Below are positions 43,907-60,062 of a stretch of 64,000 nucleotides of DNA, in pieces (the stretch's first letter is position 1; every line of letters begins with the position of its first letter). The stretch is taken from contig JADYYY010000011.1 of assembly GCA_020853395.1 (NCBI GenBank), positions 248,001 to 312,000 on the forward strand, read 5' to 3'. The position numbers were made by a program, and so were the translations under genes. A model generated the notes under the pieces. That model made no database searches, had not been told where the DNA came from, and worked only from the letters and a program-made list of their open reading frames with translations. This DNA is from Acidobacteriota bacterium. GTDB lineage: Bacteria > Acidobacteriota > Vicinamibacteria > Vicinamibacterales > SCN-69-37.

Positions 43907-44040
43907 CCTCGTGCGTCACCACGCGATGGCCCGCCGTCTCCACCCGCAGCATTCGCGGCTCCGGCGCGGCGATGCCTCGCCCGGCCGTGTTTCGTGCGGC
44001 GCGACCCTCCTGATTGCGCCCGACTCGGCCGGGGAGTAGG

Positions 44041-46362
44041 ATGGCAGCGCTGCCAGGTCCTGCCGTGAAGCCCGACCGATATCGCGCGTTCGGTCCGTTC
44101 GTGCTGGATACGCTGCGCGGACGCCTGTGGCACGATGGCACGCCCGTCGCCCTCACTCCCCGCGTCGCCGCCCTGCTGTCGACGTTCGTCGAGAGCCCGG
44201 GCGAGCTTCTGAGCAAAGACGACCTCATGCGCCGCGTCTGGGCCGGGGTCATCGTCGAAGAGAACAACCTCGCCCGCCACATCAGCACCATCCGCAAGAT
44301 CCTCGGCGAGCGGCCCGAAGAGCGCGAGTACATCGCGACGGTGCCGGGCGTCGGCTACCGCTTCGTGGCATCGGTCACGACGCTCGAGGAGCTCCCCGCG
44401 GTGTGCCGCGCGCCAGTCGCCGCACCTCGCCGCGACCTGTCATCGCCGATCGTCTCAGACCAGGCCGCCGCACCGCCCGTTCCGGCGCAAGTGCCGGGGT
44501 TAACGATCGATCGCAGGCGCGTCGGCTGGCGAGCTGCCGTCGCGGCCACGGTACTGGTGGCGGGCGCGGCCGCCGGGTGGTGGTTCGTCTGGCGGGATTC
44601 CGGCGGCGCGCCGCCAGCGGAACGCACGTTCAGGCAACTGACGTACGAAGGCGGCCTGCAGCAGGATCCGGTGTGGTCTCCCGACGGCACGCGCATCGCG
44701 TATGCGTCCGATCGACTCGGCAACGCCGACATCTGGATCCAGGCCGTCGCCGAGGCGACGCCGCCGGTCCGCGTCACGTCGTCCGCGGCGAACGACTGGC
44801 AGCCTGCATGGTCGCCTGACGGCCGGTTCATCGCGTTCCGGTCCGAACGCGATGGCGGCGGCCTCTTCGTCGTCGCCGCCGACGGCGGCGCCGAACGGCG
44901 CTTGACCGACTTCGGCACGCATCCGCGATGGTCGCCATCCGGCGATCTCATCCTCTTTTCCCGGGCCGGCGCCGAAACGGCCGGCGCGACGCGTCTTTGC
45001 CTGATCCGACCGGACGGAACAGGGCTCGCGAGCGTCGCCAGCCCGGCGCTCAGCCGCCTGACAGTCGTGAACGCGGCCTGGCATCCCGACGGCCGGCTCT
45101 CGGTCCTGGGACGCGATCAAGCCAACGCCTGGGCGCTCGCGACGTTTCGACCCGGCGGCGCCCCGGTCACGCGCTCCGACATCCCAGCCGCGGTCCAGGA
45201 ACAGTTGGCGAGCTCGGGCGTGAGCCTTCTCCAGTTCGTCTGGGCGCCGACGGGGCGGTTTCTGTTTCTCGAAGGGCGCAGCGAGGCCGTGCGCAATCTC
45301 TGGCGCGTTGCCGTGCGCCCGCGCACGCTGGCCTGGACCGGCGCGCTGGAACAGTTGACGACCGGACCGGGCAGGAACGCCGGCCTCTCGCTGTCGCCCG
45401 ACGGCCGTCAGCTCGCGTTCAGCGTCAGCACGCCGAGGCTGAGCTTCTGGTCGTACGCGTTCGACGCGGCATCGGGGAGGATCGTGGACGCGGGCCAGGA
45501 CGTGACGCCCGGCCAGGCCGACGAGCAGGACATGGACGCGTCGGCTGATGGACGGCGCCTCGTCTATCGATCGCTGCGGAGCGATCGCTTCGAGCTGTGG
45601 GAACGATCGTCGGTTGCCGAGGATCCCCGGCTGCTCGCGGCGACCACCGAATGGCGCTACTCGCTGCCGCGCTGGTCGCCCGACGGCACACGCGTCGCCT
45701 ACCAACGCACCCGGAGCGGCGGCGGCAGCCGTGCCGAGCGCGTGATCTCCATCCTGGCGGTCGACAACCGCGAAGAACGGCTCCTCGACGTCCCCGTGGA
45801 TACGACGATGGTGCCGGGCGACTGGCAGGCGGATGGCCGCGCCCTGCTCGGCGGCTGCCGGTTGCCGGCCCAACCCGCGATGGGGACCTGCGTCATGCCG
45901 GTCGACGGCGGCGAGGCGCGCCAGCTCGCCTACGATCCGCGCGCCGATCTCGTGCAGCACCGGTTCTCACCGGATCAGCGATGGATCAGCTTCGCGGCCA
46001 TCCCGCTGAACGATCGGAGCGTGTCGACTGTCTACGTGATGCCGGCCAGGAGCGGCGCGAGCTGGACGCCCCTCACCGACGGCCAGTCGTACGACGACAA
46101 GCCCCGGTGGGCGCCGGACGGCCGCACGCTGTACTTCGTGTCGAATCGCGGCGGACGTCCGGACGTCTGGGGGCGCCGCTTCGACCCGGAGACCGGCGAG
46201 CCGGAAAGTGGCGTCTTCCGGGTGACGTCGTTCGACCGCGGCCCGCGGATCCTGCCCACCTTTCTCCGTCAGCTCGGGATGGTGATCTCCACCAACCACC
46301 TGTTCCTGCCGATGTACGAAGCCACCGGTCACCTGTGGGTGCTCGACGGCGTCGACCGCTGA
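44041..46362 (+). CDS. CadC-like membrane transcriptional regulator with PD40 propeller
   Basis: A 773-residue one-component regulator. Residues 15-110 are an OmpR/PhoB-type winged helix (FVLDTLRGRLWHDGTPVALTPRVAALLSTFVE; the recognition part ENNLARHISTIRKILGE; YIATVPGVGYRFVA). A linker and a single membrane helix (about 160-180, AAVAATVLVAGAAAGWWFVW) lead to a periplasmic TolB-type propeller with at least six PxWSPDG repeats (PVWSPDGTRIAYAS, PAWSPDGRFIAFRS, LSLSPDGRQLAFSV, PRWSPDGTRVAYQR). Such proteins bind DNA from the membrane; the propeller probably senses an envelope signal. Targets are unknown; the exported cluster that follows is a candidate. Confidence 0.9.
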   Translation: MAALPGPAVKPDRYRAFGPFVLDTLRGRLWHDGTPVALTPRVAALLSTFVESPGELLSKDDLMRRVWAGVIVEENNLARHISTIRKILGERPEEREYIATVPGVGYRFVASVTTLEELPAVCRAPVAAPRRDLSSPIVSDQAAAPPVPAQVPGLTIDRRRVGWRAAVAATVLVAGAAAGWWFVWRDSGGAPPAERTFRQLTYEGGLQQDPVWSPDGTRIAYASDRLGNADIWIQAVAEATPPVRVTSSAANDWQPAWSPDGRFIAFRSERDGGGLFVVAADGGAERRLTDFGTHPRWSPSGDLILFSRAGAETAGATRLCLIRPDGTGLASVASPALSRLTVVNAAWHPDGRLSVLGRDQANAWALATFRPGGAPVTRSDIPAAVQEQLASSGVSLLQFVWAPTGRFLFLEGRSEAVRNLWRVAVRPRTLAWTGALEQLTTGPGRNAGLSLSPDGRQLAFSVSTPRLSFWSYAFDAASGRIVDAGQDVTPGQADEQDMDASADGRRLVYRSLRSDRFELWERSSVAEDPRLLAATTEWRYSLPRWSPDGTRVAYQRTRSGGGSRAERVISILAVDNREERLLDVPVDTTMVPGDWQADGRALLGGCRLPAQPAMGTCVMPVDGGEARQLAYDPRADLVQHRFSPDQRWISFAAIPLNDRSVSTVYVMPARSGASWTPLTDGQSYDDKPRWAPDGRTLYFVSNRGGRPDVWGRRFDPETGEPESGVFRVTSFDRGPRILPTFLRQLGMVISTNHLFLPMYEATGHLWVLDGVDR

Positions 46363-46495
46363 GCCTCGGGCCGAATTCAGGAATTTTCAGGACGATTCAC
46401 GCGTCCGCCTAGACGGCCTCGGCGGCTGCTCGCAGACTGTGTCGCACGTTCTTCCGGCGGCCGGCGGCGCGGCGCGCCGGTCGTTCGAGGCAGAC

Positions 46496-47683
46496 ATGCA
46501 GCGACGAGATTTTCTGTTGACCACGGCGGCCGCGGCGATCGGCGGATTCACCGTGACGCCGGCCGAAGGGCGCCGTCCGGCGCAGCCCGGCGCCTACACG
46601 CTCGTTCCAGGACCGCTCGGCAAGACGCTCAAGACGCCGGACGGCCGCGTCGTGTTCGAGTACCTGACGTCGAAGCCGGCCGAAACGGACATGAGCGCGA
46701 ACAGCGTCTGCTGCTTCGCGCCGCTCAACTCACCGGCCGGCGAGCGCCTGACGGTATTCGGCGCCGGGCATCGCCACTATCGCGGGGTCTTCTTCGCGTG
46801 GCACACCGTGGAGTTTCGCGAGCCGATTCCGGCGCCGGCACCGCGGGGCGGCGGGCCGCCGGGACGAGGGGGAAGCCGGGGCGAGGGCGGCCCCGGTCCA
46901 GGTGGCGGACGCCGCGGCGGTGGTAACGGCCTGGCGAGCGCCGCCGGGCAGGGGCCAGGCGGGGGACGTGCCGCCGCGCCGCCGCCCTCGCCGGAGGTTC
47001 TGGCGCGACAGAACCAGCCAACCCGCGGCAACGTGCTCGTGGGCGACTACTGGGGCTGGGGACGCTACGCGTTGATGGCCGGCCGTGTGATCAGGAACCG
47101 CAGCATCGAGCTCGTCAAGGCGGATCGGGCGGCCGCGCAGCTCGAGATCCAGAACGACTGGACGGTACACGACCAGGTGCTCATGCGCGAAACGCTCACG
47201 GCCGGCGTGCACGCCGTGCCGAGCGCCTACGTGCTCGACCTCACCTATCGCTTCACCCCGAACAACGTCGACGTCGTGCTGCCGGAGTGGTCCTTCGGAG
47301 GTTTCTGCGTGAGCGGCCGGTCGGACGCGCAGTCGTCGTCCTACGCCTCGCCCGACGGCAAGCTGGATCTCGGCAACCCGTCGATGGTCGACGGCAGCAC
47401 GTCCTGGCCCGACGCGCCGTGGTATGCGCGCACGCACGTCCTCGACGGCAAGACCGCCGGCTACGCCGTCATCAACCACGCGTCGAATCCGAGAACGCGC
47501 TGGTGGAATCCGCCGAGCACCGGCAACATCCAGCCGAGCATCGTGACGTACGGCGAGTACGCGATTCCGAACGGGCAGACGCTGACGCTGAAGTACCGCC
47601 TCGTCGCGTACGACGGCGAGTTCGGCGCCGATCGACTGAACCCGCTGGCCGCCGACTGGAGACAGGAGAACGGACGGGTGTAG
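46496..47683 (+). CDS. exported DUF6807 (PmoA-like) family protein
   Basis: A 395-residue protein with a Tat-type signal (QRRDFLLTTAAAAIGG). The body matches the DUF6807/PmoA family of bacterial sugar-utilisation clusters: YTLVPGPLGKTLKTPDGRVVFEYL, SAGERLTVFGAGHRHYRGVFFAW-like segment, RNRSIELVKADRAAAQLEIQNDW and NPRTRWWNPPSTGNIQPSI. The name PmoA is historical; no methane oxidation is implied. Residues 118-180 are a Gly/Arg/Pro-rich insert within the beta-sandwich. The ATG at 46496 begins the Tat signal. It opens the exported carbohydrate cluster that runs to 57.4 kb. Confidence 0.8.
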   Translation: MQRRDFLLTTAAAAIGGFTVTPAEGRRPAQPGAYTLVPGPLGKTLKTPDGRVVFEYLTSKPAETDMSANSVCCFAPLNSPAGERLTVFGAGHRHYRGVFFAWHTVEFREPIPAPAPRGGGPPGRGGSRGEGGPGPGGGRRGGGNGLASAAGQGPGGGRAAAPPPSPEVLARQNQPTRGNVLVGDYWGWGRYALMAGRVIRNRSIELVKADRAAAQLEIQNDWTVHDQVLMRETLTAGVHAVPSAYVLDLTYRFTPNNVDVVLPEWSFGGFCVSGRSDAQSSSYASPDGKLDLGNPSMVDGSTSWPDAPWYARTHVLDGKTAGYAVINHASNPRTRWWNPPSTGNIQPSIVTYGEYAIPNGQTLTLKYRLVAYDGEFGADRLNPLAADWRQENGRV

Positions 47684-47855: not shown

Positions 47856-49841
47856 GTGATGTCGAAGCGTTTGTCGTTCGTTGTCGTCGCAAGCCTGGTC
47901 ATGGGTGTCACCGCCTACGCGACCGGCCCGACATTTCGGCCCGACGTGATCTTCACGGGGTCGTCGCTCGCCGACTGGACGATGCTCGGTGCGGCGGATT
48001 GGAAGGCACAGAACGGCGAGATCGTCGGCACACCGAAGACGCCGGCCGGCGGATGGCTCGTGCTGAAGCGTTCGTTCCAGGACGTCGGCGTGTTCTCGAA
48101 CATCACGTGTGACGCGGGCTGCAAGGCCGGCATCCTCATGCGCGCCGAGAAGACACCGGACGGCGGCATGCGCGGCGTGCTGCTGCAGGTCGAGAACGGC
48201 GAGCTGAAGTCGTTCGCGGTCACGATCGACGCGCAAGGCTCCGAGACCGGCCGTAACCTGCTACCGGCGCCCGCGGGGCGCGGTGGCGGCCGTGGCGGCG
48301 GCCGCGGCGGCCCGCAGGCTGGCGCGACGACGGGCGGTGGTATGCCGGCCGGACGCGCGGCGGAACCGGTGACGCTGCCGCCAGGCGTGAGCTTGCCCCG
48401 GCTGGCTCGGCAGGGCGGGGCGTATCTGCCCAATCAGGCGAACGCGGTCGACATCAACATCACCTACAACGGCTACACCGTGAGGCTGAACGGCGCGGCG
48501 GCCGCCGGCGCAGCCGGACAGTTGACCGATCAGGTCGGCAAGTACGGGCCGATCGCGCTCTACGTCGGCGGCACGGCGCCGGCGCGCTTCAAGGACGTCG
48601 CGTACCAGGACTTCAACGTGCGGCCCACCGAAGCGGAGAAGATCTCCTCGAACTTCCGCGTCCAGCGGCTGAGCGAGTTCTACTACTCCTACTCGGCCGT
48701 CATCGCCGACATCAACCGCGACGGCAACAACGACGTGGTCGCCGGGCCGTTCTACTACCTCGGGCCCGACTTCAACGGCGCGCACCAGATCTACCTTCCC
48801 GAGTCGTTCAACCCGACGAGCGAGTACGCGCTGCCGGCGATGGTGCAGCTCGCCTACGACTTCACCGGCGACGGCTGGCCCGACGTGTTGAACATGAGCG
48901 GCAACGCGGGCAACGGCCTCGGGACGCTGTTCGTCAACCCCAAGGGCGAGAGCCGCCGCTGGGACAAGTTCGAGGTCATGCCGCTGCCCGATCACGTGGT
49001 GGGCGGCGAAGAGACGCTGCTCGAAGATCTCGACGGCGACGGCAGGCCGGAGATCATGCACACCGGCGCGAACACCCTGCAGTACTCGAGGCCGGATCCG
49101 GCGAATCCGACCGGTGTCTGGGTCACGACCACCATCTCGGAACGCGGGCCCTGGGCCGGAACGTCCGCAGGGTTCCCGAACCTCAATCACGGCCTCGGGG
49201 CGGGCGACATCAACGGGGACGGCCGCGCGGACTGGGTGAACCCGTATGGCTGGTTCGAGCAGCCGCCGAAGGGCAGCGCGCAGAAGCTCTGGACGTATCA
49301 CCCGGCGGAACTGGGACGCAACGCGACCGGCGGCGCGGAGATGGGTGTCTACGACGTCAACGGCGACGGCTTGAACGACGTGGTGACCGGCCTCGAGGCG
49401 CACGGATTCGGCGCGGCCTGGTACGAACAGAAGCGGAACGCGACCGGGGCGATCTCGTTCGTCGAGCACATGATCTTCGATACCGCCATCGACAAGAACG
49501 CGGGCGGCGTGTGGTTCACGCAGCCGCACGGCAGCACGTTCGCCGACATCAACGGCGACGGCATCAAGGACTTCATCGTCGGCAAGCGGCACCACTCGCA
49601 CTTCGAGTACGGCGATCCCGACAACTTCAGCATGCCGGTGCTGTACGTCTACAAGGTCGTGCGCAACAAGCAGGCGCCCGGCGGCGCGGAGTTCGTGCCC
49701 GAGCTCGTCTCGAACCGAGCGGGCATCGGATCGCATGCCGACACCGGCGACCTGAACAAGGACGGCACGCCCGACATCGTGGTGTCGGCGGCGAGCGGCA
49801 CGTTCATCTTCTTCAACAACTACAAGAAGGCAGGGCGATGA
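47856..49841 (+). CDS. exported DUF1080-like domain fused to seven-repeat FG-GAP propeller
   Basis: A 661-residue exported protein. After a signal peptide (to about 23) residues 25-265 form a DUF1080/LamG-like beta-sandwich (FTGSSLADWTMLGAADWKAQNGEIVG, GWLVLKRSFQDVGVFSNITCDAGCKAGILMRAE, GPIALYVGGTAPARFKDVAYQD), split by a Gly/Arg-rich insert at about 145-170. Residues 275-655 contain seven calcium-loop FG-GAP repeats: ADINRDGNNDVV, YDFTGDGWPDVL, EDLDGDGRPEIM, GDINGDGRADWV, YDVNGDGLNDVV, ADINGDGIKDFI and GDLNKDGTPDIV, fitting a seven-bladed propeller. DUF1080 enzymes include 3-keto-disaccharide hydrolases. GGGAG precedes the GTG/ATG start. Confidence 0.87.
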   Translation: MMSKRLSFVVVASLVMGVTAYATGPTFRPDVIFTGSSLADWTMLGAADWKAQNGEIVGTPKTPAGGWLVLKRSFQDVGVFSNITCDAGCKAGILMRAEKTPDGGMRGVLLQVENGELKSFAVTIDAQGSETGRNLLPAPAGRGGGRGGGRGGPQAGATTGGGMPAGRAAEPVTLPPGVSLPRLARQGGAYLPNQANAVDINITYNGYTVRLNGAAAAGAAGQLTDQVGKYGPIALYVGGTAPARFKDVAYQDFNVRPTEAEKISSNFRVQRLSEFYYSYSAVIADINRDGNNDVVAGPFYYLGPDFNGAHQIYLPESFNPTSEYALPAMVQLAYDFTGDGWPDVLNMSGNAGNGLGTLFVNPKGESRRWDKFEVMPLPDHVVGGEETLLEDLDGDGRPEIMHTGANTLQYSRPDPANPTGVWVTTTISERGPWAGTSAGFPNLNHGLGAGDINGDGRADWVNPYGWFEQPPKGSAQKLWTYHPAELGRNATGGAEMGVYDVNGDGLNDVVTGLEAHGFGAAWYEQKRNATGAISFVEHMIFDTAIDKNAGGVWFTQPHGSTFADINGDGIKDFIVGKRHHSHFEYGDPDNFSMPVLYVYKVVRNKQAPGGAEFVPELVSNRAGIGSHADTGDLNKDGTPDIVVSAASGTFIFFNNYKKAGR

Positions 49842-49934
49842 GGATGGACCTGGGTTCGCCGGCCGGATCAGGGGTATCCTCGCACCTATCCTGAAGCAAC
49901 TCGTTGGATCACGGTGAGGCGAGGGAGGCCGGAG

Positions 49935-51098
49935 ATGGAGCATCGAGAGAGACCGCAGTACTCGCGGCGCGAGTTCACGAAGCTGGCACTGGCCGCGCTG
50001 CCGGCGGCAGGCGTGGCGGACCTGGGATGGGCCGCGTCGGCATTCGCGCAGGCGAAGCCCAATTCGACGATCGACGGCGTGCGGATCGGCACGATCACGT
50101 ACAGCTACCGCAGCCTGCCCGACCAGGGCGCGGAAGCCACGCTGAAGTACGTCGTGGACTCGGGGATCAGCCAGATCGAGTTGATGGGAGGCCCCGTCAA
50201 CGCGTACGCGATGGCACGCACCGGGTTCACGCCGCCCAACGCGGGTGGCCGCGGAGACGGCGCGCCGGGCGCCGGCGGCCGTGGCCGCGGAGGGCCGGAC
50301 CCGGCGACGCTGACCGCCGAGTGGAACGGCGTGCGCTGTGCGCCGGCTCAGCCGGGTGAAGACCCAGCTATCGGCCCCGCGGCAGGGGGGGCCGCGGGCG
50401 CACGCGCCGGTGGGGGCGGCGGCCGCGGGCAGCAGACGCCCGAGCAGATCGCCGCGGCCGAAGCCGAACGCAAGTGGCGCTCGGGCCTGTCGATGAGCAT
50501 CTTCAAGGATCTGCGGAAGATGTACAACGACGCCGGCGTCAGCATCTATGCCGTCAAGGACGTGCGGCAGGGAAGCGACGAGGATCTCGAGTACACGTTC
50601 GCGGTGGCCGAAGCGCTCGGCGCCAATCACGTGACGCTCGAGCTGCCGAGCGGCCCGAACGCGGCCGCCACGCTCAAGCGGCTCGGCGACTGGGCGATGA
50701 AGAAGAAGATCTACGTCGCCTACCACACGCACCTGCAGGGGAGCATGACCGCGTTCGACCAGGCGTTCGCGATCTCGCCCGGCAACATGGCGAACGTGGA
50801 CCTCGGCCACTTCATCGCGGGCGGCAGCCGCGGCGGGACGCCGATGGACTTCCTGAACAAGTACCACGGCCGCATCGCGAGCTATCACCTGAAGGATCGC
50901 ACCTCGCCCAGCCACTGCGCGCTCAACCTGGCGTGGGGGACCGGCGAGACGCCGATCAAGGAGATCCTCCAGCTCGTGAGAAAGAACAAGTGGACGTTCC
51001 CGGCCTCGATCGAGCTCGAGTACGACGTCCCAGCCGGATCGGACGCGGTGAAGGAAGTCGCCAAGTGCCTGCAGTACTGCCGGGCGGCGCTGGCCTAG
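49935..51098 (+). CDS. exported sugar phosphate isomerase/epimerase-like TIM barrel
   Basis: A 387-residue TIM barrel with a Tat-type signal (SRREFTKLALAALPAAGV). Strands include VRIGTITYSYRSLPD, GISQIELMGG, VSIYAVKDVRQ, GANHVTLELPSG, YVAYHTHLQG, ANVDLGHFIAGG, GRIASYHLKDRT and PASIELEYDVP; the Glu, His, Asp and Glu at TLELP, YHTH, VDLGH and IELEY are the usual metal site. A Gly/Arg/Pro-rich insert of about 60 residues (residues 98-160) follows the second strand. It lies between two DUF1080-FG-GAP genes and is likely co-transcribed with them. A lyase or isomerase step on a keto-sugar is inferred. Confidence 0.87.
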   Translation: MEHRERPQYSRREFTKLALAALPAAGVADLGWAASAFAQAKPNSTIDGVRIGTITYSYRSLPDQGAEATLKYVVDSGISQIELMGGPVNAYAMARTGFTPPNAGGRGDGAPGAGGRGRGGPDPATLTAEWNGVRCAPAQPGEDPAIGPAAGGAAGARAGGGGGRGQQTPEQIAAAEAERKWRSGLSMSIFKDLRKMYNDAGVSIYAVKDVRQGSDEDLEYTFAVAEALGANHVTLELPSGPNAAATLKRLGDWAMKKKIYVAYHTHLQGSMTAFDQAFAISPGNMANVDLGHFIAGGSRGGTPMDFLNKYHGRIASYHLKDRTSPSHCALNLAWGTGETPIKEILQLVRKNKWTFPASIELEYDVPAGSDAVKEVAKCLQYCRAALA

Positions 51099-51109
51099 CG
51101 GAGTGTGCA

Positions 51110-51144
51110 GCAGCGGGGCCGGTGCACCGGCCCGGCTCCGCTGC
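51110..51144 (+). promoter_or_regulatory. intercistronic GC-rich hairpin
   Basis: A 16-bp perfect palindrome (51117-51132) flanked by GCAGCGG (51110-51116) and CCGCTGC (51138-51144) gives a stem of about 15 bp with a 5-nt bulge. It lies between the isomerase stop and the next gene's Shine-Dalgarno (AAGGAGAG), so it could act as an attenuator or mRNA-stability element. Confidence 0.6.
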
Positions 51145-51157
51145 CAAGGAGAGCGGA

Positions 51158-53275
51158 ATGGCAACGAAGTACGGACAGAGACACGGACGGCGGGCGATGT
51201 GGGCGGCAGCGGCCGCGCTGGCCGTCGCGGCCATCCTTCCGGGGCAGGCCGCGGGGCCGACCTTCCGGGCGGACTATCGATTCACCGGCACCTCGCTCTC
51301 GGCGTTCACGCCGATCGGCCAGGCCGACTGGAAAGTGCAGAACGGCGAGATCGTCGGGACGCCGAAAGATGCGACCGGCGGCTGGCTGCTCGTGAACGGC
51401 GCGGCGCTGCAGGACCTCCAGATGTACGCCGAGGTCAAGTGCGTCGCCGGCTGCAAGGCAGGATACCTCGTGCGCGCCGAGAAGACGCCCGACGGCGGCA
51501 TGAAGGGCGTGCTCATGTCCCTCACCGACGGCGATCTCCAGCCCTACCTCGTGAAGATCGACGCGCAGGGTCGGGAGGTGGGCCGCGAGCCGCTGCCGGC
51601 CCCGACGCCTGCGGCTGGCCGTGGTGGTGGCGGCGGCGGTGCCGCTGGTGCGGGCGCGCGCGCGGGTGGCGCGGCTGCGCCGGGCGGCGGTGCCCCGGGT
51701 GGTGGCGGCGCGGGACAAGGCGCACGCGCCGGCGGTGGCGGCGGACGCGGGCCCGGGCCGGCGCCGGCGCTCGCGCCCGAGATCGCGGCGCGGTTGCCGA
51801 AGAGCCTCGCCGAGCGACCGACCGGCGCGTTCGTCGCCGGCGACTACAACACGGTCGAGCTGCTCGTCAGCGAGAACGCCCTCTCGCCGAAGTTCAACGG
51901 CGGCTCGCTCGGTGGCGGCGGCGGCGCGAATCGCGCGATTCCCGACAACGAGAAGAACGGCTTCGGCCAGATCGGCCTCTACGTCGGCGGCGCGGGCGAA
52001 GCGCGGTTCAAGAACTTCATGTACAAGGACGCGCTCGTGCGCGCGTGGGGGCCCGATCGCACGGGCCAGAACTGGCGCGCCGTCCGTCTCGACCCGCACT
52101 ACTACGCTTGGAGCGCGGCCGTCGCCGACTTCAACAAGGACGGCAATCAGGACGTCGTCGCGGGCGCCTACGCCTACTTCGGCCCGAACTTCGCGATCCA
52201 GCGGCAGGTCTACACGCCGCACTCGTTCAACCCGACGGCCGAATACCCGCAGCCGGCCATGGTGAACCTCGCCTACGACTTCACCGGCGACGGTTGGCCC
52301 GACGTGCTGTCGATGAGCGGCAACGCCGGCAACGGCATCGGCAACCTCTACGTCAACCCGCAGAACCAGTCGCGGCTCTGGCCGCACTACATCACCATCC
52401 AGCCGGTCGGCAACGAAGAGACGCTCTTCAAGGACATCGACGGCGACGGCCGGCCCGACCTGATCCACGCCGGCATGAATACGCTGCGGTACTCGACGTT
52501 CGATTCCGCCAAGTGGGATCCGGCGAACCCGACCGCGATGTGGACGACGCACACGATCTCGGAGCCGGGACCGTGGGGCGTCAACATCGGGCATGGGCTC
52601 GGTGTGGGCGACGTCAACGGCGACGGCCGCGCGGATTACCTCAACGCCTACGGGTGGTGGGAACAGCCCGCCAAGGGCACGCCCGAAGGGCCGTGGACGC
52701 ACCATCCGACGGCGTTCGGCCGGTGGGGCGCCTCGCAGGGCGGCGCCGGCGGCGCGGAGATCTGCACGTTCGACGTCAACGGCGACGGCCTGCTCGACGC
52801 GTTCGGCCCGATGGAAGGCCACGGGTTCGGCCTGGCGTGGTGGGAGCAGAAGCGCGACGCGAACCGCAACATCTCGTTCGTCGAGCACATCATCATGGAC
52901 AACTTCCTCACGAAGAACGCCGGCGACGTGACGTTCACCGAGCCGCACGCCGCGGCCTGCGGCGACGTCGACGGCGACCGCCTGCCGGATCTCGTGACCG
53001 GCAAGCGCTACATGTCGCACTTCGGCTACACGGATCCGGATCCGTGGGGGGAACCGGTCATCTACGCGTACCGGCTCGTCCGGAACAAGCAGGCACCGGG
53101 CGGCGCGGAGTTCGTGCCCGAGCTCGTGCACAACCGCTCGGGCGCCGGGTCCCACATGGTCATCGCCGACATGAACAAAGACGGCATGAACGACATCGTC
53201 GTCTCGGTCAACATCGGCACCTACGTGTTCGAGAACCTGAGGAAGAAGCCGGCCGCCGCGCCCGCGGCGCGCTAG
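51158..53275 (+). CDS. exported DUF1080-like domain fused to seven-repeat FG-GAP propeller
   Basis: A 705-residue paralogue of the protein at 47856-49841. Signal peptide, then a DUF1080-like domain (FTGTSLSAFTPIGQADWKVQNGEIVG, GWLLVNGAALQDLQMYAEVKCVAGCKAGYLVRAE; both with the conserved C-x3-C) with a very long Gly/Ala-rich insert (about residues 147-205). Seven FG-GAP loops follow: ADFNKDGNQDVV, YDFTGDGWPDVL, KDIDGDGRPDLI, GDVNGDGRADYL, FDVNGDGLLDAF, GDVDGDRLPDLV, ADMNKDGMNDIV. The start has AAGGAGAGCGG directly upstream. Gene duplication within the cluster is evident. Confidence 0.88.
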   Translation: MATKYGQRHGRRAMWAAAAALAVAAILPGQAAGPTFRADYRFTGTSLSAFTPIGQADWKVQNGEIVGTPKDATGGWLLVNGAALQDLQMYAEVKCVAGCKAGYLVRAEKTPDGGMKGVLMSLTDGDLQPYLVKIDAQGREVGREPLPAPTPAAGRGGGGGGAAGAGARAGGAAAPGGGAPGGGGAGQGARAGGGGGRGPGPAPALAPEIAARLPKSLAERPTGAFVAGDYNTVELLVSENALSPKFNGGSLGGGGGANRAIPDNEKNGFGQIGLYVGGAGEARFKNFMYKDALVRAWGPDRTGQNWRAVRLDPHYYAWSAAVADFNKDGNQDVVAGAYAYFGPNFAIQRQVYTPHSFNPTAEYPQPAMVNLAYDFTGDGWPDVLSMSGNAGNGIGNLYVNPQNQSRLWPHYITIQPVGNEETLFKDIDGDGRPDLIHAGMNTLRYSTFDSAKWDPANPTAMWTTHTISEPGPWGVNIGHGLGVGDVNGDGRADYLNAYGWWEQPAKGTPEGPWTHHPTAFGRWGASQGGAGGAEICTFDVNGDGLLDAFGPMEGHGFGLAWWEQKRDANRNISFVEHIIMDNFLTKNAGDVTFTEPHAAACGDVDGDRLPDLVTGKRYMSHFGYTDPDPWGEPVIYAYRLVRNKQAPGGAEFVPELVHNRSGAGSHMVIADMNKDGMNDIVVSVNIGTYVFENLRKKPAAAPAAR

Positions 53276-53298
53276 GCGCTCAGGCTGCAGCCACTCAC

Positions 53299-53326
53299 CC
53301 CGGGGCTTCCGATTGGGAGCCCCGGG
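53299..53326 (+). terminator. terminator hairpin after the DUF1080-FG-GAP gene
   Basis: CCCGGGGCT (53299-53307) pairs with AGCCCCGGG (53318-53326), extended inside by T-G and two C-G pairs to a GATT tetraloop, 24 bp after the stop. No U-run. Confidence 0.6.
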
Positions 53327-53493
53327 TCCGTGTCCCACGTTCGTCCTCCCGCCGCCGAGACTCGTCTACACTCTCGCTGTGCTCGAACGCCCGGTCTGCG
53401 TCGTGGCGACGCAGACGCCGGCCGCTGCGCGAACAGACATGCGCCGGGCCGCCCGGGTCCCTTGCGCGCGCCACAGAACGGTCAGGAGGTCTT

Positions 53494-53967
53494 GTGAGGA
53501 CTATCGTGAACAGCATTCGGCTCGCGCTGATGGCGGCATTCGTCTTCGGTATCGGCGCGGGTCACGTCGCCGCGCAGAGCGCACCGGCGGCCGTGCCCGC
53601 GACGCCGACCAACGTCGAGGCGTTTCTGGGCGAGTGGACGGTCTCGGCCAACGGCAACTACGGGCCTGCGACCTTCGACGTGACCTTGAAGGTCGTCGAC
53701 GGCAAAGTCGTCGGCGAAGTCGCCTCGTCGGCGATGGGGAAGTCGGCCGTGACCGATCTGTCGAAAGCCGGTCCGAGCCTCGTGCTGCGCTATGCCTTCG
53801 ACTATCAGGGCACAGCCGTCGGCGCCGTCATCACGCTCACGCCGGGAAACGACAAAGTCGACGCCTACCTGGACTTCGCAGACGGCGCCGCGCAGATGGC
53901 CGGCACGGCGACGAAGAAGACCGCCGGCGCTTCGTCCGCCGCGCCCGACATCCGCCCGGCCCGGTGA
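53494..53967 (+). CDS. small exported protein, lipocalin-like
   Basis: A 157-residue exported protein with signal peptide (LALMAAFVFGIGAGHVAAQ). The mature part is an all-beta pattern of alternating strands (FLGEWTVSANGNYGPATFDVTLKVVDGKVVGEVAS broken over two strands, SLVLRYAFDYQGTAVGAVITLTP, VDAYLDFADGAAQMAGTATKK) like small lipocalin-type barrels of Acidobacteriota; no ligand is known. The GTG at 53494 follows an AGGAGGT, the best ribosome-binding site in the region. No -10/-35 is obvious. Confidence 0.75.
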   Translation: MRTIVNSIRLALMAAFVFGIGAGHVAAQSAPAAVPATPTNVEAFLGEWTVSANGNYGPATFDVTLKVVDGKVVGEVASSAMGKSAVTDLSKAGPSLVLRYAFDYQGTAVGAVITLTPGNDKVDAYLDFADGAAQMAGTATKKTAGASSAAPDIRPAR

Positions 53968-54002
53968 ACCACGAGACGTGAACCTTCAGGACGCATGGAT
54001 GG

Positions 54003-54037
54003 GGTCGAGCCGGTGAGCTGACGCCTCCGGCTCGACC
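54003..54037. terminator. bidirectional terminator hairpin
   Basis: A perfect 11-bp inverted repeat, GGTCGAGCCGG (54003-54013) and its complement (54027-54037), with a 13-nt loop between two convergent gene ends. Confidence 0.65.
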
Positions 54038-54054
54038 ACCAACGGACCAGCGGG

Positions 54055-56034
54055 CTATCGGCCTCTTGCGGCCGGCCGCTGATTCCAGAAGATCCAGCCG
54101 CCGGTATTGGTCCCCACGATCACGTCGGGCGCGCCGTCCTTGTTGAGGTCGGCCGTCTGCACCATCGATCCGACGCCAGAGCGGTTGTGGATCAGCTCGG
54201 GCTGGAAGCGCGCGCCGCCCGGCGCCTTGGGATCGCGAATCGTGCGGAACACGTAGACGACGCCCGGCCCCATCGGATCGGGATCGACGTAGCTCTCCTC
54301 GTGCGCCCAGCGGCGCTTGCCGGTGACGATGTCTTTGATGCCGTCGCCGTCGATGTCGGCCGCGGTCAGCGCGTGCAGCTCGGTGAAGGTGACGCCGCCG
54401 GGGTTCTTCGCGGCGAAGTCTCCCATGATCACGTGCTCGACCCACGTGCGCTCGCCGCCGCTCGCGCTCTTCTTCTGCTCGTACCACGCGAGGCCGAAGC
54501 CGTGCGCCGCGAGCGACGTCACGATGTCGGGCAGCTTGTCGCCGTTGACGTCGAAGATCTCGAACTCGCCGCCGGCGTTGCCGGCGCGGCCGAAGGCTTC
54601 CTGGTGGAACGTCCAGGGCACGGTCGTCGGGCCGCTCGCCGGCTGCTCGTACCACCCGTGCGGCACGACGATGTCGAGCCGGCCGTCGCCGTTGACGTCG
54701 CCGCCGCCCACGCCGTGGATGCTGGCACCTGGCGGTCCAGGCGTGGACACCACGTAAACCTTCCAGGGCGCCGTCGGATTCGCCGGGTCGGGCGCGATCC
54801 ACTGCACCACGTTGCCGCCGGCGAAGATCGGGTTGGCTTTGCCGTCGCCGTCGACGTCCTTGAAGGCGATCGCCTCCGAGGTCACCGCTGGCGAAATCGC
54901 GTAACGCGTCCAGCGGCGGCTCTCGCCGCGCGGGTTGACGTACAGCACCGGCGGCCGCGATTCGACAACGAGGATGTCGTCCCAACCGTCGCCCGTGTAG
55001 TCGGCGGCGTAGTTGACCATGGCGGGTCCGTACTCCTTCGCCGGGTTGTACGGCTGGCCCAGGTACAGCTCGCGCGACTCCTCGAACTTCGGTCCGAGGT
55101 AGTAGCGGTTGCCGGTCGTCACGTCCAGCACGCCGTCGTGATTGAAGTCGCCGGCGGCCATCGACCAGCCGTAATAGAAGTCCTCGATGTGCTGCGCGCG
55201 GAAGCGGGCCGACACGTTCGGCGCCGGCGTGATCCGCCGGTTCAGATCTTTCAGGGCCAGGTGCCGGAACCGGACTTCGCCGGTGCCGCCGACGTAGAGC
55301 GCCACGGGGCCGTAGCCGCCGCCCTTGCCGTCGGTCGCCACGACGAGGCCGTTCGAGCCGTCGAAGTAGCCGGCGGGCCGGTAGGAATTGACGGCCACGC
55401 GGAGGATGTCGGCATCGACGATCAGCTCGAACTGGTTCCAGTCGTTCGGCCTGAGCGCGTCGGAGGGCGCCGGCGGGAACTTCGACGTGAACGGCATCGC
55501 CGGGGCTGGTGCGGCGCCGCCGCGGCCGCCGCCACCTCCGCCTGCGCGTGCACCGGCCGCACCGGGCTGGGGCGCCGGCGGCGCGAGCCGGTACTGCCCG
55601 GGCGCCGGACGGGTGAGCGGCTCGGGCGCGCCGATCGCACCGTCGGCGCCGACGACGATCGCCTGTGCGGCCCGCGCGCCGCCGGCGAGCACGCCGTAGA
55701 GCCCTTTCGTGCCGTCGGGCGCGGTCTCTGACCTGAGCATCACGCCCACCCTGCACTCGCCGCTGCACCTGAACTCACCGCCGACTTGCACGTCCTGGAA
55801 GCCGCCCGGCAGGAGCAGCCATCCGCCCGCTGGCGACGACGGCACCGCGACGATCTCGCCGTTCGTTGCCGTCCAGTTCGCCTGGCCGACCTGGCGCGTG
55901 CCCGTCAGCGCGGCGCCCGTGAACGTCCAGTCCGGAGCGAACGTGCCGATCTGCCCGTGCAGCGTCAGCGGCATCGTCACCCCTGCCGCCGCAGCCGTCA
56001 GTGCGAAAACAAAGATCCCGAGTCGTCGTCTCAT
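54055..56034 (-). CDS. exported DUF1080-like domain fused to seven-repeat FG-GAP propeller
   Basis: A 659-residue third paralogue, on the opposite strand. Signal peptide (LGIFVFALTAAAAGVTM), DUF1080-like domain (FTGAALTGTRQVGQANWTATNGEIVA, GFQDVQVGGEFRCSGECRVGVMLRSE with the C-x3-C), a Gly-rich insert (about 145-160), then loops GDFNHDGVLDVT, ADYTGDGWDDIL, KDVDGDGKANPI, GDVNGDGRLDIV, FDVNGDKLPDIV, ADIDGDGIKDIV and ADLNKDGAPDVI. The third and fifth loops lack one usual acidic or Gly residue. The ATG at 56034 starts the signal peptide; the frame continues upstream but is noncoding there. A GGGGGAC precedes the start. Confidence 0.87.
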   Translation of the reverse strand: MRRRLGIFVFALTAAAAGVTMPLTLHGQIGTFAPDWTFTGAALTGTRQVGQANWTATNGEIVAVPSSPAGGWLLLPGGFQDVQVGGEFRCSGECRVGVMLRSETAPDGTKGLYGVLAGGARAAQAIVVGADGAIGAPEPLTRPAPGQYRLAPPAPQPGAAGARAGGGGGGRGGAAPAPAMPFTSKFPPAPSDALRPNDWNQFELIVDADILRVAVNSYRPAGYFDGSNGLVVATDGKGGGYGPVALYVGGTGEVRFRHLALKDLNRRITPAPNVSARFRAQHIEDFYYGWSMAAGDFNHDGVLDVTTGNRYYLGPKFEESRELYLGQPYNPAKEYGPAMVNYAADYTGDGWDDILVVESRPPVLYVNPRGESRRWTRYAISPAVTSEAIAFKDVDGDGKANPIFAGGNVVQWIAPDPANPTAPWKVYVVSTPGPPGASIHGVGGGDVNGDGRLDIVVPHGWYEQPASGPTTVPWTFHQEAFGRAGNAGGEFEIFDVNGDKLPDIVTSLAAHGFGLAWYEQKKSASGGERTWVEHVIMGDFAAKNPGGVTFTELHALTAADIDGDGIKDIVTGKRRWAHEESYVDPDPMGPGVVYVFRTIRDPKAPGGARFQPELIHNRSGVGSMVQTADLNKDGAPDVIVGTNTGGWIFWNQRPAARGR

Positions 56035-56425: not shown

Positions 56426-57355
56426 ATGGCTGCAATCTCGAGACGTGAGTTCCTGGAGAAGTCGGCGGTCGGATCGGCGATGGCGGGCGTGCTGGCCGCC
56501 GGCGGCGCGCGGGTCGGCGCGAACCCGCTCGGCTTGCCCATCGGGAGTCAGACGTATCCGCACCGGCAGTTGATCGCCGACGGCAAGTTCGTCGACCTGC
56601 TCAAGCAGCTCAAGAGCATCGGCGTCGATCAGATCGAACTGTGCGGTTCCCTTCCGGGTGGCACGTTCTATCAGGAGTTCAACAGCCTGATGAGCGATCC
56701 CAAGGCCGTGCGCAAGCAGATCGAAGACAACGGTCTCAAGGCGATCAGTTGCCACTTCATGTTCACTGAGCTCCGCGACAACCTGCAGCGGGCGATCGCC
56801 TGGTCGAAGGACATGGGCCTCGAGCAGATCATGGTGCCGACGATCAAGAGCGCGATTCCCGGGCAGCCGATCAGTGGACCGAATCCGCTCGACGAGGCCA
56901 AGCAGCTCGTCGATCAGTTCCACAAGATGGCCGAGCAGATCGTCAGGGCCGGCATGCGCGCCGGCGCGCACAACGAGGCGTTCGACCTGGTGAAGCTGCC
57001 CGACGGCACGTTCGTCTACGATCACGTCATCCAGATGACCGATCCGAAGCTCATCGGCTTCCAGTTCCAGATGTCGACCTACAGCGTCGGGATGGTCGCG
57101 TCCGAGTACTTCAAGAAGCACCCGGGCCGGTTCTTCTCGATGCACGTGCAGGATCTCGACATCAAGGCCGGCCGGACGCCGGTCGTCAACGGCCGCGGCG
57201 GCGGCTACGCGCAGACGGCGGTGGGCCAGGGCGGGCTCGATTGGGCAGGGACGTTCGCGGCCGCGCGCACCGGCGGCGTGAAGAACTTCTTCGTCGAGCA
57301 GAACATGGAGATGACGAAGGCGAGCGTGGCCGCGCTCAAGGCGATGAAAAGCTAG
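56426..57355 (+). CDS. exported sugar phosphate isomerase/epimerase-like TIM barrel
   Basis: A 309-residue TIM barrel with a Tat-type signal (SRREFLEKSAVGSAMAGVLAAGG). Strands: PIGSQTYPHRQL, GVDQIELCGSLPGG, LKAISCHFMFTEL, LEQIMVPTIKS, MRAGAHNEAFDL, IGFQFQMSTY, FFSMHVQDLD and KNFFVEQNMEM. The CHF, HNE, Q-M-S and VEQN positions are the usual metal or substrate sites, but the classical Asp of the fifth site is Gln here. A GGRGGGYAQ loop precedes the last strand. It lacks the long Gly-rich insert of its paralogue at 49935. Family members act on sugars, inositols or keto-glycosides. Confidence 0.85.
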   Translation: MAAISRREFLEKSAVGSAMAGVLAAGGARVGANPLGLPIGSQTYPHRQLIADGKFVDLLKQLKSIGVDQIELCGSLPGGTFYQEFNSLMSDPKAVRKQIEDNGLKAISCHFMFTELRDNLQRAIAWSKDMGLEQIMVPTIKSAIPGQPISGPNPLDEAKQLVDQFHKMAEQIVRAGMRAGAHNEAFDLVKLPDGTFVYDHVIQMTDPKLIGFQFQMSTYSVGMVASEYFKKHPGRFFSMHVQDLDIKAGRTPVVNGRGGGYAQTAVGQGGLDWAGTFAAARTGGVKNFFVEQNMEMTKASVAALKAMKS

Positions 57356-58165: not shown

Positions 58166-59173
58166 GTGCTCGCGTACTTCAAGACCTCGCTGAGCTGGAG
58201 CGAGCTGTTCAAGCGCACGGTGAGGGAAACGCAGGCCGACAACGGGCTCGGCCTGGCGGCCCAGCTCGCGTACTACTTCTTCCTGGCGCTGTTTCCGGCG
58301 CTGCTCTTCCTGATCGCGCTGGCAGGCCTCTTCGCCAGCGCCGACGTGATCAACCAGATCGTCGCGATGATGGGCGGCGCCGCGCCGCCAGACGTGATCG
58401 CCATCGTGCGCGAGCAGTTGCTGAAGCTCGCCGAGAGCGACCAGGGAGGCATCATGACGTTCGGCGCGCTGGCTGCGCTCTGGAGCAGCTCGGCCGCGAT
58501 GGTCGCCCTCATCGACGCGCTCAACCGCGCCTACGACGTCGAGGACGCACGCCCCTGGTGGAGACAGCGCCTCACGGCGATCCTGCTGACCATCGGCGTG
58601 GCGGCCTTCATCGTCCTGTCCTTTGCGCTGGTCGTCGCCGGGCCGGAGCTGGCCAGCAGCGTGGCGGATCGGTTCGGGCTGGGCACCGCCTTCGAGTGGA
58701 CCTGGACGATCCTGCAGTGGCCGATCGTGTTCGCGCTGGTGGCCTTCGCGTTCGGCCTCATCTACTACTTCGCACCCGACGTCGACCAGGACTGGGTGTT
58801 CCTCACGCCAGGTTCGGTGCTCGCCACGGCGCTCTGGCTCGTCGGCTCTCTGGGATTCCGGTTCTACGTCGTGAACTTCGGCTCGTACAACGAAACGTAT
58901 GGGGCCATCGGCGGCGTGATGGTCCTGATGCTCTGGCTCTACATCTCCGGGCTCGTCGTCGTCATCGGCGCCGAGATGAACGCGGAGATCGAGCACGCCT
59001 CGCCGTACGGCAAGGCGCCCGGCGAGAAACGCCCAGGCGAGCGCACCTGCATCGGACCACGAGCCGAACGGGAGTTCTTCGAGCGGCGGCGGCGAGCGCG
59101 GCCGGAGCCATTCCTCCAGCCGGCGGACCTCGGCCAGCCGGCGTCGTCTAGCTCGCGAGGTTCGTCTGGATGA
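58166..59173 (+). CDS. YihY/BrkB family inner-membrane protein
   Basis: A 335-residue integral membrane protein with six predicted helices. Family marks: LGLAAQLAYYFFLALFPALLFLIAL after an amphipathic N-terminus, ALWSSSAAMVALIDALNRAYDVE, PWWRQRLTAILLTI, PGSVLATALWLVGSLGFRFYVVNFGSYNETYGAIGGVMVLMLWLYISGLVVVIGAEMNAE (read in two motif parts). Once called ribonuclease BN, the family is not an RNase; a transport or envelope role is likely. A charged C-terminal tail (RAEREFFERRRRARPEP) follows. The GTG at 58166 was chosen because it begins the conserved part. Its end overlaps the convergent isomerase-like gene by 26 bp. Confidence 0.9.
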   Translation: MLAYFKTSLSWSELFKRTVRETQADNGLGLAAQLAYYFFLALFPALLFLIALAGLFASADVINQIVAMMGGAAPPDVIAIVREQLLKLAESDQGGIMTFGALAALWSSSAAMVALIDALNRAYDVEDARPWWRQRLTAILLTIGVAAFIVLSFALVVAGPELASSVADRFGLGTAFEWTWTILQWPIVFALVAFAFGLIYYFAPDVDQDWVFLTPGSVLATALWLVGSLGFRFYVVNFGSYNETYGAIGGVMVLMLWLYISGLVVVIGAEMNAEIEHASPYGKAPGEKRPGERTCIGPRAEREFFERRRRARPEPFLQPADLGQPASSSSRGSSG

Positions 59174-60062
59174 TCTCCGTCGCAGTCCGCGAGCCGCGCA
59201 CGATGTCGGCCGGCGGGCTGGTGATCTCGATCGAGTACTTGCCCCGGTAGCCGCCGCCTTCCACGAGGCGCACCAGCTCGCCGACGTCGTAGCCAGGCGC
59301 GTAGTCCGCGTCGAACCGATCGACCTTGGCCGAAATCAGCCCAGCGTGCGGGAGGAGCTTGCGCGTGAACTCGAGACGCTGCGCCTGGTTCTCGACCCGG
59401 AAGTTGCCCCAATCGACGATGGCCCGGACGCGCGGATCGACCGCCTTCATGATCGACACGAGCGTGTCGGGATCGCTGCTATGGCCGCCGTGGTTCTCTG
59501 GCATCGGCATGACGCCGATCGTCGCGCCGAAGTCGGCCAGCTCACGATAGGACTCGGCCGTGATCTTCAGATCCAGCGGCTCGCCCTGCCGGCCGCCCAC
59601 GTCGGCGCGCACCGTCGGCGCCCCGAGCGCCGCGGCGATCCGCATGCCCTCCTTGATCTCGGCGATCGACTTCGCGCGCACGGCCGGATCGGGCGCCGAC
59701 ATCTGCCCGCCGAGCTGGAAGTTGATGAACGCGACGCCCACCTTGTCGGCTGCGGAACGGACCCGTTCGGCATAGGCAATCGTCCGCTCGTCCAGGTGGT
59801 TGATGATGATCTCGAGCTGGCGAAGTCCGAGCTCCTCGCGCACGAACTTCGGCGCGTCGATCGCCGTCATCACCGCGCGTTCGGGTGCCGGGGCGTTCGG
59901 GCTGCGGCCCGCCGCGAGCAGGTGCCGGAAGCTCCAGGTCGCGATGCCGATCCGCGCGAGCGGGTCGGCCTGGCGGGCGGCGCTCGCCGGTGCGGCGGAG
60001 AACAACGGCGTAGCCAGGACGATCGACCCGCGCTTCAGGAAGTCTCGGCGGTGCAGGCTCAT
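59148..60062 (-). CDS. exported sugar phosphate isomerase/epimerase-like TIM barrel
   Basis: A 304-residue TIM barrel with a Tat-type signal (HRRDFLKRGSIVLATPLFSAAPASA). Strands: RIGIATWSFRHLL, LRQLEIIINHL, VGVAFINFQLGG, GAPTVRADVGG, IGVMPMPENHGGHSSDPD (His/Asn metal region), VRAIVDWGNFRV, LISAKVDRFD and GKYSIEITSPPAD. The WGNF and SIEI positions supply Asp/Asn and Glu of the metal site. A minus-strand TATAGT (60099-60094) about 30 nt before the ATG is a promoter candidate. Fifth exported member of this family in the window. Confidence 0.87.
   Translation of the reverse strand: MSLHRRDFLKRGSIVLATPLFSAAPASAARQADPLARIGIATWSFRHLLAAGRSPNAPAPERAVMTAIDAPKFVREELGLRQLEIIINHLDERTIAYAERVRSAADKVGVAFINFQLGGQMSAPDPAVRAKSIAEIKEGMRIAAALGAPTVRADVGGRQGEPLDLKITAESYRELADFGATIGVMPMPENHGGHSSDPDTLVSIMKAVDPRVRAIVDWGNFRVENQAQRLEFTRKLLPHAGLISAKVDRFDADYAPGYDVGELVRLVEGGGYRGKYSIEITSPPADIVRGSRTATEIIQTNLAS

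Follow-up and report, generated by a model that had tools for sequence, protein, structure and literature searches.

Aldos-2-ulose dehydratase (AUDH) of Phanerochaete chrysosporium consists of a propeller followed, C-terminally, by cupin domains and a lectin domain, and the zinc of its propeller is said to bind the intermediate ascopyrone M in a histidine-assisted elimination of the keto-sugar, as Claesson et al. reportedly described in 2012. The VCBS group of propellers takes in AUDH, the TcB toxin propellers and the PVL lectins in PMC8023676, which places a family-level link of AUDH to this group already in print. Activity on 3-keto-glycosides is reported or proposed for PF06439 proteins in PMC9007349, where BT2157 and CCNA_01705 are 3-keto-disaccharide hydrolases and the xanthanase/lichenase THTE_1561 is also named. 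A third type of protein, the TIM barrel AtOGE, is a 3-keto-O-glycoside eliminase with reported metal ligands and catalytic histidine (PMC10628242), and sugar breakdown in which a keto-intermediate undergoes elimination in place of hydrolysis is a recent theme in PMC10628242 and PMC13273386. Here we describe three genes, A, B and C, within a 64,000-nucleotide stretch of an Acidobacteriota bacterium (assembly GCA_020853395.1, contig JADYYY010000011.1, positions 248,001 to 312,000; hereafter the window), each encoding a PF06439 domain joined to a VCBS/FG-GAP propeller. Both domains are known already, as are a keto-sugar dehydratase among VCBS propellers and PF06439 enzymes of 3-keto-glycosides; no paper on the PF06439 (DUF1080) plus VCBS/FG-GAP fusion was found in the open-licence literature.

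A, B and C are tentatively read as periplasmic keto-sugar lyases or dehydratases with the active site in the propeller; the chemistry and the substrate are what we infer, and our confidence in the whole is somewhat less than even. This reading is favoured because AUDH comes first in VIA-align for both structural models, because active-site-like residues are invariant in all aligned propellers and in a set spanning three phyla, and because the propeller is linked to redox proteins in those phyla. Further grounds are a stand-alone PF06439 gene in four of five Opitutae loci, PF01261 proteins near seven of the 15 copies in this genome, and the PF06439 and TIM-barrel relatives for which action on 3-keto-glycosides has been reported or proposed (PMC9007349 and PMC10628242).

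Architecture and predicted fold of A, B and C

The three proteins are intact reading frames with the PF06439 domain preceding the propeller (Table 1), and B and C are 54% and 43% identical to A, respectively. PF06439 (3keto-disac_hyd, DUF1080 presumably being its earlier name), PF13517 and PF01839 all scored above the Pfam cut-offs in each protein. E-values in A, B and C were 3.6e-12, 1.8e-7 and 3.7e-10 for PF06439 and 2.1e-22, 1.9e-23 and 4.1e-29 for PF13517, and the architecture is therefore far from chance. An earlier note on this DNA, made from the sequence alone, had described three paralogues with DUF1080-like and FG-GAP parts, two on the plus strand and one on the minus strand, and the reading frames and Pfam domains confirm this. 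No NCBIfam model scored above cut-off for A, B or C; below cut-off, XAC2610 was matched by A and C and none by B. A hydrophobic signal-like segment was recognised by eye at the three N-termini, and the proteins are probably exported.

Related loci were gathered with short degenerate patterns, giving a non-exhaustive set of 80. Sixty are titled Acidobacteriota and include all matches reaching into the PF06439 half, while the other 20, titled Planctomycetota or Verrucomicrobiota, match essentially the propeller only. The pattern D-x-[DNST]-x-D-[GKRN] identifies exactly seven loops in each propeller at a spacing of 48-69 residues, the first Asp lying at residues 284/334/390/450/499/563/631 in A, 324/374/426/485/539/603/671 in B and 296/345/393/446/495/560/629 in C. 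The claim of exactly seven loops thus holds with this relaxed motif but not with the literal D-x-[N/D]-x-D-G on which it had been based: even D-x-[DNS]-x-D-G counts only 6, 5 and 5 loops in A, B and C, because loop 2 reads D-[FY]-T-G-D-G in all three, loop 6 of B ends in D-R and loop 5 of C ends in D-K. The relaxed pattern is kept in 47-51 rows per blade of a 51-row alignment, which comprises the three window proteins and 48 of the 80 loci (44 of the 60 acidobacterial ones).

The AlphaFold2 model of A, based on the 51 aligned rows, has a pLDDT of 86.1 and a pTM of 0.87, and that of the C propeller alone (40 rows) a pLDDT of 90.2 and a pTM of 0.91, with 28 strands (7 x 4), the first of which, by reading of the strands, closes the last blade. 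The predicted models of A and of the C propeller display seven four-stranded blades with an Asp-rich loop between blade strands A and B, as in VCBS/FG-GAP propellers. The closed propeller of seven blades, each with its calcium-type loop, that was proposed earlier is therefore borne out as a prediction.

Structural comparison using VIA-align placed AUDH first for the whole A model (Z-score of 25.9 and root mean square deviation (rmsd) of 3.5 over 336 residues), followed, among non-AUDH structures, by LGI1 (Z-score of 23.4) and integrins (Z-score of 21.8). AUDH was again first for the C propeller alone (Z-score of 27.1 and rmsd of 3.7, with 336 aligned residues and 18% identity), with integrins next (Z-score of 23.1). 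The two AUDH scores reveal a seven-bladed fold like that of PDB entry 4a7k, although a shared fold shows no function. The integrin Cage/FG-GAP blade motif is structure-derived (PMC3192720), and a regular expression of our own, written after that source, found it in 0 of the 21 blades of A, B and C. The predicted propellers thus resemble the keto-sugar dehydratase AUDH at least as much as an integrin, and the earlier comparison with integrin alpha heads stands for the general fold, where integrins are strong matches; a relationship beyond the fold is unsupported.

Invariant residues of the propeller

E384, H444, W465, E467, H515, W521, E523, Q524, H557, K576 and H581 (A numbering) are unchanged in 51/51 rows. 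The same residues do not vary in a set of 14 rows that includes members of Planctomycetota and Verrucomicrobiota, in which the Opitutae row L071 shares 36-47% identity with the rows from Acidobacteriota and the window. E384, H444 and H557 each lie at position -6 from the first Asp of the calcium loops, in blades 3, 4 and 6, respectively; across the 51 rows the corresponding position is occupied by S or T in blade 7 and is variable in blades 1, 2 and 5. Each of the three residues begins the innermost strand and, judged by topology, would lie on the propeller side remote from the calcium loops. The invariant Glu/His/Lys/Trp pattern fits an active site, and a specific sugar-binding site could look alike.

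In one alternative, neither domain would be catalytic and the proteins would be surface molecules for sugar capture or adhesion, with an integrin- or lectin-like propeller feeding neighbouring enzymes and TonB-type transporters. Such a role, which we hold to be unlikely, would agree with the strong fold similarity to integrins, CRTAC1 and LGI1 and with the 79 proteins flanking the fused gene in 41 of the 60 acidobacterial loci (chosen by length), of which 10, 10 and 7 are matched by outer-membrane-barrel, CarboxypepD_reg and TonB receptor families, respectively. It fits less well with the lack of the Cage motif in all 21 blades, with His, Glu and Lys residues whose invariance across three phyla suggests chemistry or a specific ligand, and with the repeated linkage to redox proteins described below.

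Divergence of the fused PF06439 domain

The 15 fused domains of this genome were compared with 18 stand-alone ones (17 from this genome and one from Opitutae). The E/Q column is kept in 17/18 stand-alone domains versus 0/15 fused domains, which carry 10 A, 3 L and 2 R. Alignments disagree on the residues of the fused domains: alignment A6 gives Leu in the E column of A and B, and its Q column has Gln in A and Ser in B, where the alignment of 15 plus 18 domains has T, K, V or A in all 15. The Asn of the NSG motif is N in 13 and D in 5 stand-alone domains, while the fused ones present 6 K, 3 R, 3 T, 1 A, 1 E and 1 D. Judging from the losses at the E/Q and Asn positions, the fused domain would no longer perform the stand-alone reaction. 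Profile A2 matches the solved structure 4jqt at 7.1e-12, and a stand-alone PF06439 copy of this genome matches 4jqt, 8rr2, 8tda and 8v31; a single-sequence structure search with the PF06439 domain of A found no PF06439 structure.

A further distinction is a C-x2-3-C cysteine pair, present in 61 of 63 fused proteins (15 from this genome and 48 loci, counted over the first 290-310 residues) versus 0 of the 17 stand-alone domains of this genome. A, B and C all have C-x3-C, and in the model of A residues C84 and C88 are located on the two sides of a hairpin turn formed by strands 76-84 and 88-98. The pair pointed out in the earlier note is thus conserved, and the disulfide suggested there, C84-C88 in A, is plausible from the predicted geometry but unproven.

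In a second alternative, the PF06439 domain would be the catalyst, as a 3-keto-glycoside hydrolase or lyase, and the propeller a calcium-stabilised, PVL-lectin-like glycan-binding module. The family match above cut-off in A, B and C, the Arg of the NSGxxxR stretch, kept in 15/15 fused and 12/18 stand-alone domains, the stand-alone relatives reported or proposed to be 3-keto-glycoside hydrolases (PMC9007349) and the membership of PVL lectins in the VCBS group (PMC8023676) are all consistent with it. We nevertheless find it improbable, as the E/Q column is lost and the Asn of NSG replaced in the fused domains, the active-site-like residues invariant in 51/51 rows sit in the propeller, and the propeller occurs without a PF06439 domain in other phyla.

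Linkage to extracytoplasmic redox proteins

In the same 41 acidobacterial loci, a quinoprotein (pyrroloquinoline quinone type) gene lies directly beside the fused gene in 16, and in 12 of the 41 it is immediately downstream on the same strand at a distance of 0-113 bp. Quinoproteins thus make up 16 of the 79 flanking genes versus 11 of 368 other genes. Ten neighbours were scanned, comprising eight quinoproteins, one tetratricopeptide repeat protein and one protein without a match. The eight quinoproteins are nearest to the glucose/quinate/shikimate dehydrogenase model, far below its cut-off, and cytochrome c is matched at E 1e-10 by six of them. All three long planctomycete proteins scanned carry the propeller in fusion with heme-binding domains of the TIGR02604 and TIGR02603 families; L078, L080 and L088 are planctomycete proteins of ~1600 aa joining the propeller to PVC-type heme-binding domains.

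In the Opitutae locus L072, by Pfam, a PSCyt/PSD1 and a DUF1501 gene precede the free propeller, with SGL and a stand-alone PF06439 gene downstream. A tblastn search showed the same gene set in L076, L077 and L073, the PF06439 gene of L073 lying at a distance of ~8 kb. A stand-alone PF06439 gene therefore lies downstream of the free propeller in four of the five Opitutae loci with enough sequence; L071 has no PF06439 gene in the sequence covered, and L074 is too short to count. It follows that the halves fused in A, B and C exist elsewhere as separate genes of one cluster, and that extracytoplasmic redox proteins accompany the propeller in each of three phyla.

This association could also mean that the propeller, instead of being a lyase, assists extracytoplasmic dehydrogenases as their partner or scaffold in electron transfer or substrate channelling. 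The planctomycete fusions to heme-binding domains and the closely spaced downstream quinoprotein genes (12/41 loci) point that way. We consider it very unlikely, given that no heme- or quinone-binding family matched A, B or C in Pfam and that a directly adjacent quinoprotein gene is missing for 14 of the 15 copies of this genome.

Elsewhere in this genome, the quinoprotein gene L102:6909-9218 (+) is directly upstream of copy C3:59793 and next to a nucleoside-type H+ symporter; its product, of 770 residues, matches cytochrome c over residues 475-545 and stays under the cut-offs of those curated quinoprotein models to which it has a match. A second quinoprotein lies a few genes from copy C20:384. 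In the window, a quinoprotein-like gene is found at 29477-31258 (+), ~17 kb from A (phmmer 4e-58). Other candidate partners were rejected: the four PF13618 matches of the genome, representing a LacABC-type dehydrogenase, are not near a copy, and one of 19 Gfo/Idh/MocA matches is directly beside a copy (C20:37717). No common theme emerged among 20 selected neighbours (penicillin amidase, NTP transferase, FMN_dh, Nramp, ferritin-like and others).

Proposed route and points against it

If A, B and C are keto-sugar enzymes, they would be exported and take part in keto-sugar breakdown in the periplasm or at the surface. The starting sugar or glycoside would first be oxidised to a keto-sugar by an extracytoplasmic dehydrogenase, cytochrome-linked or other. 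The propeller would then bind this keto-sugar in its central channel, at the end remote from the calcium loops, where a metal and histidine centre would eliminate water or the aglycone, as is thought for AUDH. The N-terminal PF06439 domain, without the E/Q of its stand-alone kin, would position the glycan, and the product would be hydrated, isomerised or cleaved by neighbouring TIM-barrel proteins. Structural roles would fall to the C-x3-C pair and the seven calcium loops, and many copies would mean many substrates.

Several observations weigh against this proposal. The VIA-align lead of AUDH over LGI1 is only 2.5 Z units for the A model, and Foldseek E-values put CRTAC1 first for both models, with AUDH at rank 36 for A and rank 6 for the C propeller. 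In sequence searches of the PDB with these proteins, AUDH is absent among the matches listed, and those to the propeller consist for the most part of stretches with calcium loops from integrins, CRTAC1, ITFG2 and toxin propellers. As regards the redox linkage, the Fisher p of 5.9e-7 for quinoproteins among flanking genes overstates independence, since the loci are related to each other; none of the eight quinoproteins examined scores above the curated threshold for any known sugar or alcohol dehydrogenase, and 8/8 also resemble the 'acido-empty-quinoprotein'. In this genome C3:59793 is the one copy of 15 with a quinoprotein gene next to it; A, B and C all lack one. Being near-identical, the Opitutae loci amount to about one event, and the free-propeller loci L070 and L075, from other groups, lack the PSCyt/SGL/PF06439 set. 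Finally, PF01261 matches lie within 5 kb of 7/15 copies with a binomial p of 4.6e-4, which overstates independence as three of the seven copies form the window cluster.

A wider version of the keto-sugar proposal, which we regard as doubtful, is that these proteins represent an undescribed family of extracytoplasmic keto-sugar lyases or dehydratases with a VCBS-propeller catalytic centre. They would belong to a route of glycan breakdown in Acidobacteriota, Planctomycetota and Verrucomicrobiota that oxidises with a cytochrome-linked dehydrogenase and then eliminates, the bacterial equivalent of the pairing of pyranose oxidase with AUDH in fungi. Here and in some other Acidobacteriota, the family would have expanded to at least ten copies specialised by substrate. 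Were the propeller the catalyst, the elimination route would gain a further protein fold and a large uncharacterised bacterial family, and would be tied to quinoprotein and cytochrome systems of unknown substrate; were it only a binder, the family would still be strongly multiplied. In either case, the invariant residues provide a concrete list for mutation.

Copy number, phylogeny and distribution

The genome (4.28 Mb, 21 contigs) contains 15 copies of the fused architecture, each one single open frame, in addition to its 17 stand-alone PF06439 matches. A quick tree of 85 rows pairs A with C2:397737 and C with C15:134769 and places B in a group with C11:223273 and C3:72924, with support of 99-100 in the Shimodaira-Hasegawa-like approximate likelihood ratio test (SH-aLRT). 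A, B and C as one clade was rejected by the approximately unbiased (AU) test on two trees (p 3.9e-55). The tree omits 10 of the 80 loci because of fragments, split frames or ends (L035, L038, L056, L059, L064, L066, L067, L087, L090 and L091), with proteins >1000 aa cut to 480 aa and the copies of this genome trimmed to an upstream Met. The duplication with diversification suggested for the three genes is therefore retained in that they are diverged paralogues; their nearest relatives, however, lie elsewhere in the genome, so that the window cluster gathers separately diverged paralogues, and local triplication or tandem duplication is rejected.

At E 1e-40, none of 39 relatives of this genome had more than three matches (for three relatives, among the best 30 candidates scored). 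At E 1e-100 the presence is patchy, in 7/193 genomes of the class and 8/297 of a phylum sample, this genome included; these surveys scored the best 6 and best 4 candidates per genome, respectively, so that copy numbers are lower bounds (at least four in one genome). At the same E 1e-100, eight named acidobacterial assemblies have 11, 11, 4, 5, 12, 5, 3 and 3 matches, including partial ones, and the idea that many copies are unique to this genome was dropped in view of the 11-12 matches in three of the eight.

Neighbouring genes in the window

The coordinates of the genes and domains are presented in Table 1. A, the TIM-barrel gene at 49914 and B probably form one operon, judging from their common strand and from gaps of 72 bp to A (93 if the start is 49935) and 59 bp to B. 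The Tat-like N-termini of the three TIM barrels and of the DUF6807 protein, 175 bp upstream of A, were assigned from the twin-arginine motif, and they indicate that the set is probably periplasmic.

Table 1. Position, strand and basis of assignment of the genes and domains described in the window.
Feature	Position	Strand	Basis or remark
Protein A, 660 aa	47859..49841	+	Signal-like N-terminus (by eye), PF06439 domain, predicted seven-bladed VCBS/FG-GAP propeller
Protein B, 705 aa	51158..53275	+	Architecture as A
Protein C, 659 aa	54055..56034	-	Architecture as A; alternative later start 55974
PF06439 domain of A	47946..48599	+	Pfam; Gly/Ala-rich linker within
PF06439 domain of B	51281..52021	+	Pfam
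PF06439 domain of C	55249..55920	-	Pfam
Predicted seven-bladed propeller of A, residues 263-658	48645..49832	+	Model, loop motif
Predicted seven-bladed propeller of B	52064..53251	+	Placed via alignment to A
Predicted seven-bladed propeller of C	54058..55212	-	Propeller modelled alone, loop motif
C-x3-C of A (C84, C88)	48108..48122	+	Sequence, model
C-x3-C of B (C95, C99)	51440..51454	+	Sequence
C-x3-C of C (C90, C94)	55753..55767	-	Sequence
Trans_reg_C winged helix plus PD40 propeller regulator	44014..46362	+	Start 44014 or 44065
DUF6807 (PF14100) protein	46439..47683	+	Start 46439 or 46496; Tat-like N-terminus
Xylose-isomerase-like TIM barrel between A and B	49914..51098	+	PF01261, 29.6 bits (cut-off 31.1); Tat-like N-terminus
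TIM barrel divergent from C	56426..57355	+	PF01261, 28.6 bits, below cut-off; Tat-like N-terminus
TIM barrel further out	59148..60062	-	PF01261, 67 bits; longer open frame to 60749; Tat-like N-terminus

In the TIM barrel between A and B, residues H271, H273, D296, H325 and E367/E369 are ordered as the metal ligands and catalytic His of AtOGE. C11:223273, the nearest paralogue of B, has a different TIM barrel downstream and a divergent regulator 42% identical to that of the window; the Trans_reg_C/PD40 one-component regulator (44014-46362 in the window; L105:11076-13448, +) may control these genes. The genome as a whole contains 41 PF01261 matches which, with the stand-alone PF06439 matches, are many for 4.3 Mb, and this abundance suggests a broad keto-sugar metabolism. 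A small protein of ~157 aa with a signal-like start (53494-53964, +) is encoded just after B, and a tmRNA gene with the tag ADTQLALAA is located at 36879-37234 (+).

Comparison with known systems

The likeness of A, B and C to AUDH (PDB codes 4a7k, 4a7y and 4a7z) consists in the seven-bladed propeller of the VCBS family. In contrast to AUDH, a PF06439 domain precedes the propeller, which ends the protein, and the Pfam scan gave no cupin or lectin match. The N-terminal propeller of integrin alpha likewise has seven blades and a D-x-D-x-D-G loop between the first two strands of the blade, but with three or four calcium-type loops, compared with all seven blades in A, B and C, and with a Cage/FG-GAP motif that our expression does not detect in them. 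With the PF06439 3-keto-disaccharide hydrolases, of which solved relatives include 4jqt, 8rr2, 8tda and 8v31, the proteins share the Pfam domain; they differ in the C-x3-C pair, the inserted low-complexity linker, the attached propeller and the missing E/Q residue. Similarity to AtOGE lies in the neighbouring TIM barrel at 49914, with metal-ligand-like residues that follow the same order, by residue order only (PMC10628242), whereas the TIM barrel beside the nearest paralogue of B differs from the one between A and B. The free-standing and heme-fused propellers of Verrucomicrobiota and Planctomycetota are 33-38% identical to the A propeller over the best segments and have the same invariant residues in the members aligned; they differ from the window proteins in lacking PF06439 in the same protein, the two parts being separate clustered genes in Opitutae and the propeller being fused to TIGR02604/TIGR02603 in planctomycetes.

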